A DNA stretch of 64,000 bases from Dyadobacter flavalbus (GTDB lineage: Bacteria > Bacteroidota > Bacteroidia > Cytophagales > Spirosomataceae), in the NCBI RefSeq assembly GCF_006149045.1, contig NZ_VBSN01000027.1, forward strand, positions 124,001-188,000. Direction: 5' to 3'. The notes beneath the pieces are model-generated. The model was not told the DNA's origin and searched no databases. It saw nothing but the letters and a program-made list of their open reading frames with translations. A program made the translations under genes and the position numbers. Shown here piece by piece: positions 25,049-29,207 of this stretch (position 1 is its first letter; each line of letters begins with the position of its first letter).

Positions 25049-25993
25049 CTATACGGTAATCAGCATGGCGCCGTAAGAATAACCGCCGCCAAAAACGGTA
25101 ATGACAATATTTTCTCCTTTTTTAAACTTGTCCTTATTTTCAGAAAGTGCAATGGCGCAGCCTGCACAGCCCGTATTTCCAAGATATTGAATATTTGAAA
25201 TCAGTTTCTCCGCCGGAATTCCAAGCGTATTGATCACATTCAGACTGATGCGGTGATTGGCCTGATGCGGAATAAGATAATCAAGGTCATCAATGGTAAG
25301 GCCGCACGCCTGCAAAACCTGCTGACTGACTTTCGGCATATAAATACACGCATTCTGGAATACATCGCGGCCGAAAGGCATTACAACACCGCGCTCGTTC
25401 GGGCGCAGTACGACGGCTTCTATCGCTTTTCCGCTTGTTGCCGCGCCGCCGGTAATCAGCTTTTTGATCTGCATATCCGAGTCAGTCTGGCGTTCTTTTG
25501 AGATCAGAATCGCAGAAGCGCCGTCGCCCCATAAATGTCCGGAAACGGTATCCATTTCGTTGTAATAAGCCGTGTTATGATCCGATACGACCACAATGGC
25601 TTTGGATGCCTTGCCCAGTGCAAAATAACCTTCCACAATTTCAATGGCATTCAGCAGCGAAGAACAGGCGGATGAAATACTCACAACCGGAATATCCGGA
25701 ATCTGAAGATGATGCTGAACGGCATGGGCTAACGTAACAATGGTATCATAAGGCGTGTAAGTTGCCCCGACAATAAGATCAATTTCATTTTTACTGTAAG
25801 GAATGCTTTCAAGCAGGGACTCAACGGCCTTGATCGCCATTGTGGTTGTATTTTCATCCTTGGAAGCTTTACGTCTTTCCGAAATTCCCGTGCGTTCTAC
25901 AATCCACTCGTGAGACAGATTGTTAATGTTTGTAAAATATTCATTACCAATTACTTCGCTTGGCAAATAATGACTGACTGTATTAATATACAT
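25049..25993 (-). CDS. 3-oxoacyl-ACP synthase III family protein (FabH-like, divergent)
   Basis: A 314-residue condensing enzyme. The catalytic triad is intact: Cys110 in SSACSSLLNA, His243 in PHQAN and Asn273 in GNT. The fold markers (WIVERTGISERR near 30-41, FGGGYSYG at the end) are those of KAS III. Two motifs are unusual: the nucleophile elbow reads ACSSLLN rather than the common AACSGF, and the motif after the catalytic asparagine is GNTGCAGCAIAL instead of GNTSAASIPIAL. This suggests a specialised paralogue with a different acyl primer, for example in pigment or other secondary lipid synthesis, rather than the housekeeping FabH. It stands alone in its transcript. Confidence 0.88.
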   Translation of the reverse strand: MYINTVSHYLPSEVIGNEYFTNINNLSHEWIVERTGISERRKASKDENTTTMAIKAVESLLESIPYSKNEIDLIVGATYTPYDTIVTLAHAVQHHLQIPDIPVVSISSACSSLLNAIEIVEGYFALGKASKAIVVVSDHNTAYYNEMDTVSGHLWGDGASAILISKERQTDSDMQIKKLITGGAATSGKAIEAVVLRPNERGVVMPFGRDVFQNACIYMPKVSQQVLQACGLTIDDLDYLIPHQANHRISLNVINTLGIPAEKLISNIQYLGNTGCAGCAIALSENKDKFKKGENIVITVFGGGYSYGAMLITV

Positions 25994-26114: not shown

Positions 26115-27251
26115 TTATGATCCACCTGAATGTTCCAGGATTGTTTTGTAAAATGATAAAAGAATGGCTTCTTCCTGTTTCCAGTTGTAATGAATTTCGG
26201 CTGCCTTCCGTCCGTTCCTGCCCATTACAGCACCTTTTTCGGGATTTTGAATCAGCCATAGCAGTTTCTGGTACAATATACCGGCATCATATGGAGAAAT
26301 ACAAAACCCGCATTCCGATTGTTCCACAACATGCCTGTAAAGCAGAAAATCCGATGCAATAACGGGCAGTTTCAAAGCCATGTAATCGAACAATTTGGTT
26401 GTGTAGGAATCGGGGTAATCTGCAACCGGTTTGAGCAGTGCAATGCCGGCAACCGCATTTTTTGCATAGGAAAGCAGCCTTTTCTGGTCTGTATACCCGT
26501 AAAATATCAGATTCGGACGAATTTCGGCATAACCCGGCAAACTTGCTGCTTCGCCCGGCTGAAAACGAACGGGCCCGAACAAGTGCATTCTGAAATCCGG
26601 ATACCGGGTTTTCAACTTTGACAATGCCGTAACCAGAACATCAAAGCACCTTTCCATGGAAATGACGCCTGCATAGAAAAATTCCGGTTTTTCATTTACC
26701 GGAAATTCCCGGGCACCATATTCGTCCATAAACGGAATGGAAGCATAATTATGGATAACGGCATACGGCAATGCAAGATTTTCATACTCTTGAAGGTAAG
26801 CATCTTCCGTAAAAACGCAGAAAAAGCTTTTTCGGGCAAGATGATCAAAAAGCCTGAAAATGGCGCGGAACACTAAACCGTTATTAAACTGCTTGATGCT
26901 GAATTTTTTATAAAGGTTTTCCTGCACTTCATAAATAATCTTTGCTCCAAGCCATTTGAAAAGAAAAGCTGCGGGAATCAGTTCAGGGACAAAAATATGC
27001 ACCAGATCCGGCCGGATACGCAGGCATTTCCACAGCATAACCGGATGACAAAACAGAAGTCTGGACAGTAATTGCCGGAAATAAGGAAGGTTAATGAATG
27101 CAATATTGCTTTTCTGCTGATTGGAGCGTGCATTGGGCAACGCACAAAACACTTCATGATGTATGGCCAGTGAAGGCGCAATTTTGTACAAAATGCGCGG
27201 GTCTGTTGCCGGATGTACAACGCTCAAAAGCAAAATCCGCTGTCTGTTCAT
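26115..27251 (-). CDS. Glycosyltransferase family 4 protein
   Basis: A 378-residue GT-B fold glycosyltransferase. The C-terminal half shows FYAGVISMERCFDVLV, then LFDYMALKLPVIAS followed by VEQSECGFCI, which correspond to the nucleotide-sugar binding region with the EX7E-like element of family GT4. The N-terminal acceptor domain begins ILLLSVVHPATDPRILYK, typical of exopolysaccharide transferases. Donor and acceptor cannot be read. The ATG overlaps the deoC-like stop codon by four bases (27248-27251, ATGA), so the two are translationally coupled. Confidence 0.88.
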   Translation of the reverse strand: MNRQRILLLSVVHPATDPRILYKIAPSLAIHHEVFCALPNARSNQQKSNIAFINLPYFRQLLSRLLFCHPVMLWKCLRIRPDLVHIFVPELIPAAFLFKWLGAKIIYEVQENLYKKFSIKQFNNGLVFRAIFRLFDHLARKSFFCVFTEDAYLQEYENLALPYAVIHNYASIPFMDEYGAREFPVNEKPEFFYAGVISMERCFDVLVTALSKLKTRYPDFRMHLFGPVRFQPGEAASLPGYAEIRPNLIFYGYTDQKRLLSYAKNAVAGIALLKPVADYPDSYTTKLFDYMALKLPVIASDFLLYRHVVEQSECGFCISPYDAGILYQKLLWLIQNPEKGAVMGRNGRKAAEIHYNWKQEEAILLSFYKTILEHSGGS

Positions 27252-27907
27252 AGTCCGGAAACAATCGAAATTCCGCTTGCAGTTCCGATGCGCGATGCGC
27301 CGGCTTCTACCAGTGCACTGGCCTGTGCAGGTGTAAAAATCGCTCCGGCTGCCTTTATACGGACATGCGGCGGCAATATCGTTTTCAGCTTGCGAACGGT
27401 CTCTTCATCTGAGTAATTTTCTGCAGATCCGGTAGCAGTCACGATAAAATCAGCTCCAGACTCGGCGCAGATTTCAGCAGCTGTGTACAATTCAAAAGAA
27501 TCGAGAAAAGCCGTTTCCACGATGACTTTGAGCAAGGCATTTTTTTCATGCGCCAGTTCGGAAAGGGTTCTTAATTCTTCACGCACGCTCAGATAAGCCA
27601 TGGATTTGAAACGGGAAAGGTTCATGACCACATCCAGTTCCGTGGCTCCGTTCTGCAGCGCGTCACTCGCTTCAGATACTTTTGACCTGGTTGTCGAATA
27701 GCCGAAAGGAAAACCGATTACCGTAGCAATTTCAATTTTTACCGGACAGAATTCCAGCATTTCGACAGCATAGGTTACATAAGACGGCGCCACACAAATG
27801 GCTTTGAACTGATGAATCCAGGCTTCTTCACAAATTTTGCGGATATCCGTTTCGCTTGCCGTCGGGCCAAGCAGTGTGTGATCTATAAAATCAGAAATAG
27901 GGATCAT
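27248..27907 (-). CDS. Deoxyribose-phosphate aldolase homologue lacking the Schiff-base lysine
   Basis: A 219-residue protein with the DeoC TIM-barrel throughout: IDHTLLGPTA at 8-17, VIGFPFGYSTT at 63-73, ELDVVMN at 90-96 (Asp92), LKVIVET at 126-132, IKAAGAI at 184-190 (Lys185), RIGTASG at 206-212. DeoC cleaves deoxyribose 5-phosphate through a Schiff base on a lysine in the motif F-V-K-T-S-T-G. Here that segment reads FIVTATGS, with Val156 in the lysine position. If the reading is correct the classical aldolase reaction should be impaired or lost. The ATG at 27907 matches the DeoC N-terminus; the frame extends 57 codons further upstream but into unrelated sequence overlapping the DUF5606 gene. 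It is coupled to the downstream glycosyltransferase. Confidence 0.85.
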   Translation of the reverse strand: MIPISDFIDHTLLGPTASETDIRKICEEAWIHQFKAICVAPSYVTYAVEMLEFCPVKIEIATVIGFPFGYSTTRSKVSEASDALQNGATELDVVMNLSRFKSMAYLSVREELRTLSELAHEKNALLKVIVETAFLDSFELYTAAEICAESGADFIVTATGSAENYSDEETVRKLKTILPPHVRIKAAGAIFTPAQASALVEAGASRIGTASGISIVSGL

Positions 27908-27989: not shown

Positions 27990-28499
27990 TTAAGCCTCGT
28001 TTTCTTCTTCCTTAACCGGTTCTGCGGCAGCCTCCGCAGCTGGCTCTGCTGCTGCTTCTTCGGTCTGCTGTACGGCAAAAAGTTCAGGCGTATATTTTGA
28101 CAATAAATTATACCAGCTTATGATTTTTTTAATGTCGGAAACATAAACTTTGGATCTGTCGAATTCGGGAAGAACCTCATTCAGAAACTCGACCAGTTCT
28201 TTGTCGGAAGATGTTTTTACCGGCAAGGCAATTTCTTCTCCGTGTACTTCCCGGATTTTAAGAAAAACATCAGCCAAAGCAACGGATTCTTCTTCGCCAT
28301 CTGTAAAAATCGAAACATCTTTTAACACCGAGACGCGAGCTGTCGGTCCGATCAGTGTTTTTTCACGTTTTTCATCCAGGCTTTCAACGATAACGCCTGC
28401 ACGGCTTGGCTTCAGAATCCGGAACAAACCGCTTTTCCCTGAAACATTGGCAATTTCCTTCAACAAATCCATTCCGGTTGATTCTGCTTTTTCACTCAT
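27990..28499 (-). CDS. DUF5606 domain protein
   Basis: A 169-residue Bacteroidota protein of the DUF5606 family. The conserved start LLKEIANVSGKSGLFRILKP (11-30) and the GVIVESLDEKREKTLIG segment resemble a small beta-barrel, and the middle contains SDIKKIISWYNLL. The last 30 residues are a low-complexity alanine/glutamate tail. The function is unknown. It lies 99 bases downstream of engB and 82 bases upstream of the deoC-like gene on the same strand, so the four genes engB to glycosyltransferase may form one transcript. Confidence 0.85.
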   Translation of the reverse strand: MSEKAESTGMDLLKEIANVSGKSGLFRILKPSRAGVIVESLDEKREKTLIGPTARVSVLKDVSIFTDGEEESVALADVFLKIREVHGEEIALPVKTSSDKELVEFLNEVLPEFDRSKVYVSDIKKIISWYNLLSKYTPELFAVQQTEEAAAEPAAEAAAEPVKEEENEA

Positions 28500-28598: not shown

Positions 28599-29207
28599 CT
28601 ACTTTGTATTCTGAAACGACTGGTTATAAGTTTCTATTGTTTCCAGAATCGGGTCTCTTCCTTCATTTTTTTCTGCCGAAGAAATGAACATCGGCGGAAT
28701 TTCTTCCCATATTTCTTCCAGTTTCTGCCGGTATGCCTCCACATTGCTCGCAACCTGCCCGGATTTGAGCTTGTCCGCTTTGGTAAAAATAATATGGAAC
28801 GGAATGCCGGCTTCGCCCAGATTCGCCATAAAATCAAGGTCTACGGCCAATGCGCTGTGGCGGATATCAATCAGTACAAAGGTGCAGATCAGGTTTTCAC
28901 GGTTATAAAGATAATCTCCGATCATTTTTTCCCATTTCTCGCGCTCCACTTTGCTGACCTTGGCATAACCATAACCCGGCAAATCGACGAGGTACCACGA
29001 ATTATTGATCAGAAAATGATTGATAAGCTGTGTTTTTCCGGGCTGCTGCGAAGTTTTGGCCAGCGACTTCTTTTCCACAAGCATATTGATGAGCGACGAT
29101 TTGCCCACATTGGATCTTCCGATAAAAGCATACTCGGGCAAATCAGGCGAAGGGCATTTCTGATAATCCGAATTGCTCATAACATATCTGGCATCCTGAA
29201 CTTTCAT
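28599..29207 (-). CDS. engB: Ribosome biogenesis GTPase EngB (YihA/YsxC)
   Basis: A 202-residue small GTPase required for assembly of the large ribosomal subunit. G1 is GRSNVGKSS at 30-38, G3 lies in VDLPGYGYAKV, and G4 is TKADK. The SKVEREKW element and the lack of a KH domain distinguish it from Era and Der. Length is typical. It begins the likely transcript that continues with DUF5606. Confidence 0.95.
   Translation of the reverse strand: MKVQDARYVMSNSDYQKCPSPDLPEYAFIGRSNVGKSSLINMLVEKKSLAKTSQQPGKTQLINHFLINNSWYLVDLPGYGYAKVSKVEREKWEKMIGDYLYNRENLICTFVLIDIRHSALAVDLDFMANLGEAGIPFHIIFTKADKLKSGQVASNVEAYRQKLEEIWEEIPPMFISSAEKNEGRDPILETIETYNQSFQNTK

Follow-up and report, generated by a model that had tools for sequence, protein, structure and literature searches.

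A candidate DeoC pseudoenzyme in Dyadobacter flavalbus and six separate active-site losses within the genus

Among class I aldolases, deoxyribose-5-phosphate aldolase (DERA) is a textbook case, and it is widely used in biocatalysis. What, then, is to be made of an unbroken deoC gene whose product carries valine where the lysine forming the Schiff base should be? Such a gene lies within a stretch of 64,000 nucleotides of the genome of Dyadobacter flavalbus, hereafter the window, and its product could be a working aldolase after all, an enzyme of another kind, a protein on its way to being lost or one that is kept for a role independent of catalysis.

The locus and the altered active site

On translation, positions 27248–27907 of the minus strand give a single open frame of 219 amino acids, which is part of the following gene cluster:

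25049..25993, minus strand: beta-ketoacyl-ACP synthase III-like (KAS3) gene (Pfam; part of the conserved gene order)
26115..27251, minus strand: GT4-type glycosyltransferase gene (Pfam Glycos_transf_1; ATGA overlap with the deoC stop at 27248–27251)
27248..27907, minus strand: deoC pseudoenzyme candidate, 219 aa (start ATG at 27907, stop TGA at 27248–27250)
27990..28499, minus strand: DUF5606/DUF6852 protein gene, upstream of deoC (Pfam and synteny)
28599..29207, minus strand: GTPase gene (Pfam MMR_HSR1; part of the conserved gene order), which we take to be engB, encoding EngB/YsxC

Consistent with the initial annotation, the gene is full length and in frame, and its TGA stop codon overlaps the ATG start codon of the GT4 gene (ATGA). 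That annotation had also read this coupling as a sign of special selection on the present copy, which does not hold, because 46 of the 50 loci whose GT4 frame could be used share the 4-base overlap, most intact relatives among them, and it is thus general for the locus; the genome G004 has no such overlap. The order KAS3-GT4-deoC-DUF5606-engB is constant across the Dyadobacter loci listed, and horizontal replacement of deoC was therefore judged unlikely. At each of the loci listed, from Dyadobacter as well as from sister genera, deoC has the DUF5606/DUF6852 gene upstream, the product of which is a candidate partner. At one locus (L063, D. psychrotolerans), the spacing between these two genes is ~1.9 kb longer than in other species, an apparent insertion.

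The encoded protein passes the NCBIfam deoC equivalog model TIGR00126 (197.4 bits against a cut-off of 117.3) as well as PF01791 (39.7 bits against 23.8). Its structure predicted with AlphaFold2 from an alignment of 48 sequences has a mean pLDDT of 94.8 and adopts the TIM-barrel fold of DERA, with a TM score of 0.95 to both 6D33_A and 6MSW_A. Such a model is a prediction in which the homologue alignment favours the family fold and a subtle defect would hardly be visible; at this level, the sequence can accommodate an intact barrel. The positions that matter for catalysis and for phosphate binding are as follows:

27440..27442, minus strand: codon 156, GTG (Val), at the position of the Schiff-base lysine (E. 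coli K167), from the alignment and the codon
27353..27355, minus strand: codon 185, AAG (Lys), equivalent of E. coli K201, kept, from the alignment
27632..27634, minus strand: codon 92, GAT (Asp), equivalent of E. coli D102, kept, from the alignment
27341..27343, minus strand: codon 189, Ala, a position occupied by Gly in at least 95% of the intact relatives; by motif, the counterpart of E. coli G205 in the phosphate site
27278..27280, minus strand: codon 210, Ala, a position occupied by Ser in at least 95% of the intact relatives; by motif, the counterpart of E. coli S238 in the phosphate site

The replacement of the Schiff-base lysine by valine, which was the starting point of this work, is borne out: Val156 aligns to the lysine of the FVKTSTG-type motifs in the solved DERAs 6D33, 6MSW and 8QPS with no gap at or near the site, which rules out that an indel has shifted the catalytic lysine to another position. 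The roles of K167, K201 and D102 of E. coli DERA are described in the available parts of two studies, in one of which K167 is considered indispensable (PMC6016325, PMC8403123). Set against these residues, the window protein lacks the Schiff-base lysine and retains the proton relay of Asp102 and Lys201 as Asp92 and Lys185; it bears the mark of a pseudoenzyme, namely, the absence of conserved catalytic residues of its family.

The lysine is not the only change. The claim that every other DeoC motif is kept proved too generous, since 5 of the 16 conserved positions on our pocket list are altered (K156V, S158A, S187A, G189A and S210A) and the conserved F161 is a serine. In the phosphate site, as assigned by motif, G160, G188 and S211 are kept, and the counterparts of G205 and S238 are Ala189 and Ala210; residue 189 is a glutamate in D. 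sediminis. The known phosphate contacts of G205 and S238 in E. coli DERA are made by their backbone amides, according to the accessible portion of PMC7671976, so the effect of the two alanines is uncertain.

Six separate active-site losses within one genus

All 48 Dyadobacter genomes contain a deoC match, one each and with no internal stop codon. In a codon alignment of 51 sequences (these 48, one per genome, plus 3 from sister genera), the triad Asp92/Lys156/Lys185 is complete in 44 (41 from Dyadobacter and the 3 from sister genera) and broken in 7 of the 48 Dyadobacter sequences:

Window and D. sediminis Z12 (G006, L047/L136): K156V
CY326 (L137): D92E and K156T
G048: K156H
D. luticola (L138): D92E
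CY261: K185E
G004: D92Q and K185S

The 7 altered sequences occupy 6 separate places on a tree of 4 neighbour genes, in which several deep nodes have only 51–67% support and the pair formed by the window and D. sediminis has 100; except for this pair, no 2 altered lineages are sisters. Thus, the active site has been lost 6 separate times within a single genus. Beyond the genus, all 20 matches at 50% identity or more keep Asp/Lys/Lys, 3 of these being genomes already counted as sister-genus rows. The substitution of lysine by valine is not clade-wide, with Val156 common to the window and only one sister species, D. sediminis. In G004 and G048, DeoC shares only 54% and 52% identity with the window protein, and the frames are still open. 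The K185E change in CY261, a lineage with few other changes and an unraised ω (the ratio of nonsynonymous to synonymous rates; see below), may be very recent or an error.

A backup DeoC was sought in the altered genomes and rejected. PF01791 matches a single place in G000, G006, G008 and G056 and none in G004, G014 and G048, the syntenic deoC of which falls below the cut-off and was recovered by protein search; no second PF01791 match was found in any altered genome, and the second canonical deoC that the initial annotation had proposed to look for is accordingly not seen with this model in the genome of the window. Further PF01791 matches occur in 3 genomes with an intact deoC, G013:C7:141840-142538 and G041:C33:431576-432268 (150 and 107 bits) and G060:C315:16-460 (2 pieces of 34 bits each), and probably represent another aldolase of the DeoC/LacD family.

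Models of DeoA and DeoB, which feed DeoC, have no match over the cut-off in any of the 48 Dyadobacter genomes. Among the controls, E. coli and others match and the single Bacteroides genome matches neither model, so diverged DeoA and DeoB, or unrelated enzymes in their place, may exist in the phylum. Matches to DeoB below the cut-off (15 places in 14 of the 48 genomes) cover only about positions 236–376 of 381 and probably come from other enzymes in the same superfamily. The triad of DeoC is kept in 41 of the 48 genomes although neither DeoA nor DeoB exceeds the cut-off in any. Purine nucleoside phosphorylase (TIGR01697) is present in 7 of the 48 genomes, with 0 of the 7 altered, numbers too few to judge a link.

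In the family as a whole, 68 of 222 genomes have no match to the window protein (38 of 181 among those of good quality). Other genera of the family have a longer DeoC of about 240 residues, which keeps the triad in all 18 sequences read and in several genera stands beside the short type. Another altered active site in a DeoC homologue is found in a genus of the same family, g47 (L186, L187, L189-L218; by our guess Spirosoma), in which 34 of 36 genomes encode a DeoC-like protein of ~213 residues. All 30 sequences read have glutamate for the catalytic aspartate, and the KASGG loop is altered (K-I-V-A-D-G-like); unlike in the window protein, both lysines are kept in all 30 and the gene sits at a different locus, between pseudouridine synthase-like and TonB-like frames in L187 (names given by reading). 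Its presence in 34 of the 36 genomes marks it as a stable form rather than a recurrent loss; one copy (G212) has a single TAA inside the match, and 21 genomes of g47 have a second, more distant DeoC match. The same change from aspartate to glutamate arises separately in CY326 (L137) and D. luticola (L138).

The residue losses in the window protein, together with the selection that still protects its gene (see below) and the repeated losses in its relatives, suggest a second, non-enzymatic job for DeoC. On balance, we favour the reading, with a probability of roughly 0.55, that the window protein is a recurrently evolving DeoC pseudoenzyme retained for a non-catalytic role. The protein would descend from a working deoxyribose-5-phosphate aldolase and would have kept its fold. 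Without the lysine no Schiff base could form, and the changed phosphate site would make binding of the old substrate unlikely. Catalysis would have been lost in 6 Dyadobacter lineages, as it could be in a genus without recognisable DeoA and DeoB feeding DeoC, and the gene would be kept because the folded protein does something independent of aldolase chemistry, most likely through its surface, as a binding partner, scaffold or regulator. From these data, we infer the loss of aldolase activity, its reason and any partner-binding role. Loss of supply would account for catalysis becoming dispensable but not for the protein being retained.

Selection on deoC after the loss

If the aldolase became dispensable in several lineages for want of DeoA and DeoB supply, the gene might simply be drifting toward loss, its frame surviving because too little time has elapsed and because the coupled GT4 gene would be translated less if a stop codon arose. 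The zero count of DeoA and DeoB in 48 genomes, the 68 of 222 family genomes without a match and the 4-base overlap in 46 of 50 loci all fit such a slow decay, and so do the substitution rates in part. We estimated ω with a GY-type codon model (F3x4 frequencies, branch classes) that was written for this analysis and reproduces the IQ-TREE likelihood. Against a deoC background of 0.067, ω is 0.160 on the terminal branches of the window and D. sediminis (2ΔlnL of 8.7 against background), branches that postdate the loss, given that Val is present in both; it is 0.265 on the stem of the pair, 0.409 in D. luticola, 0.238 in G004 and 0.153 in CY326, and it is not raised in CY261 (0.091, 2ΔlnL of 0.95). 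The deoC rows of G048 and D. tibetensis were saturated and left out of the ω results. When terminal branches were tested singly, 5 of 51 lay above background (2ΔlnL > 3.84), namely, D. luticola, D. sediminis, G004, the window and CY326, all of them altered lineages, with CY261 and G048 not among them; 4 intact terminal branches were significantly below background. These 51 tests are uncorrected, and D. luticola alone would survive a 51-fold correction; the row of L081 is a zero-length-branch artefact. Raised ω on 5 of the 7 altered terminal branches and on the stem is what decay would produce, and the relaxation in D. luticola (0.41) fits it too.

The rise on the window and D. sediminis branches is not wholly confined to deoC. 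Among its neighbours, KAS3, engB, DUF5606 and an argK-like gene display no significant change of ω on these 2 branches, an M1-peptidase gene is significantly lower and GT4 is mildly raised (0.227 against 0.139, 2ΔlnL of 4.9). For D. luticola, ω of the M1-peptidase gene also exceeds its background (0.076 against 0.037, 2ΔlnL of 15.1), so the rise in this species may be partly genome-wide. The names argK and M1 peptidase were given by reading, not by family search; the GT4 rows of G004, G048 and D. tibetensis (for numerical reasons) and argK of G004 (gene absent from the locus) were left out. Counts of differing codons agree, with a nonsynonymous to synonymous ratio of 19:36 (0.53) in the window/D. 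sediminis pair compared to 0.15–0.33 in 9 close intact pairs.

Constraint on deoC after the loss is relaxed but still strong at the amino-acid level. On the 2 post-loss branches, ω of 0.16 is far from neutrality (ω = 1 rejected, 2ΔlnL of 46.3), as befits a pseudoenzyme kept by selection after its loss, and the initial impression that selection seems to keep the gene was well founded. Coupling to GT4 cannot explain this constraint, because it forbids stop codons and not missense changes. Moreover, all 48 frames are open, including that of G004, which lacks the overlap, and that of G048, whereas under random drift at 0.175 substitutions per site only 5.6% of frames would be expected to be free of stops.

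The distribution of the changes within the window/D. sediminis pair is uneven:

27620..27907, minus strand: codons 1–96 of deoC, window compared with D. sediminis, 15 synonymous and 0 nonsynonymous differences

Codons 97–219 differ by 21 synonymous and 19 nonsynonymous changes. The split at residue 96 was picked after viewing the differences, a choice for which the permutation p of 0.0022 allows. Background branches show no such contrast (ω of 0.068 for residues 1–96 and 0.066 for residues 97–219), whereas residues 97–219 reach 0.26 on the 2 tips. The latter value is again compatible with relaxation under decay; the absence of any amino-acid change in residues 1–96 beside 15 synonymous ones speaks against it. 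As a general rule, the contrast between the halves was rejected, since it is reversed on the window/D. sediminis stem (0.405 in residues 1–96, 0.146 in 97–219) and in CY261 (0.183 and 0.054, respectively), and it is not significant when pooled over 4 altered lineages with 5 terminal branches (2ΔlnL of 0.64). By our estimate, the DERA positions K58, D82 and A95 fall in the first half of the protein. These are interface positions, and barrel repeats 6 and 7, with the 2 lysines, lie opposite the dimer interface, according to the parts of PMC4725968 available to us. Retention of the N-terminal surface in the window/D. sediminis pair fits this arrangement and is a lead for that pair only.

Across the altered lineages, changes concentrate in the pocket. 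Positions with at least 95% conservation among intact sequences fell into two sets, those on a pocket list, which is our own compilation and draws partly on known structure, and the rest; the list included the triad, and the comparison was repeated without it. With the triad left out, 23 of 78 pocket positions have changed over the 6 lineages compared to 70 of 558 elsewhere (p = 0.00025), and 14 of 65 compared to 51 of 465 when G004 is omitted (p = 0.024). Weighing the raised ω against the amino-acid constraint that persists after the loss, we consider slow decay the main rival, though less likely than a retained pseudoenzyme.

Alternative functions and relation to known systems

The initial annotation had also raised a different reaction using Lys185. 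Lys185 and Asp92 are both kept in the window and in D. sediminis and the predicted fold is intact, so a barrel that now catalyses another reaction through either residue is conceivable. It becomes less likely because the phosphate site has changed and because all amino-acid changes between the 2 sequences lie in residues 97–219, the part that holds both lysine positions; neighbours of the active site drift between them, for example, A189 to E and I155 to M. In addition, which member of the triad is lost varies among the 6 lineages and no replacement is common to them, and we regard new chemistry as improbable. Still less credible is a DERA in which another lysine has taken over the Schiff base: Lys185 corresponds to the second active-site lysine, but the phosphate site is altered and selection relaxed, and K167 of E. 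coli DERA is held to be indispensable in one of the studies cited above. A sequencing or assembly error at codon 156 can be discarded, since the separate genome of D. sediminis, with a protein 91% identical, has the same GTG, a codon that must have moved by more than one step, being 2 changes from AAG and 3 from the AAA of the 4 intact relatives listed.

This returns us to a DeoC pseudoenzyme retained for a non-catalytic role. More tentatively, and with appreciably less confidence, such a function of DeoC might predate the losses and have freed the active site for all 6 of them, residing in the N-terminal half in the window lineage. If the pseudoenzyme reading is true, the genus offers a natural replicate series in which to follow how a bacterial pseudoenzyme is born, the intact sister species acting as controls and each recurrent loss serving as a replicate experiment on the change from enzyme to pseudoenzyme. 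The reading predicts a second job of DeoC that may exist, hidden, in the intact relatives too. It also follows from the score against the curated cut-off of TIGR00126 that a protein annotated as DeoC by a family model need not be an active aldolase.

Pseudoenzymes as such are well known. Our literature search, with most subscription journals outside its reach, found no report of a natural DERA without the Schiff-base lysine or of DeoC pseudoenzymes, no paper joining Dyadobacter with deoxyribose-phosphate aldolase or deoC and none on a ‘pseudoaldolase’. The closest precedent in kind that we found is the fungal Ssd1/Dis3L2 pseudonucleases, in which, according to the available part of PMC8097288, the active site was likewise lost repeatedly (at least 4 times) while another part stays conserved, a pattern that this source attributes to a second function predating the losses. 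The analogy has its bounds: these nucleases are eukaryotic, carry additional cold-shock domains and have a known phenotype, whereas DeoC is a single-domain bacterial aldolase. Compared with a bona fide DERA, BH1352 of B. halodurans (6D33), the window protein is alike in its score over the cut-off of TIGR00126, in sequence (38% identity), in predicted fold (TM score of 0.95, rmsd of about 1 Å) and in the aspartate and second lysine of the triad, and it differs in having valine for the Schiff-base lysine and alanine for the glycine and serine of the phosphate site.
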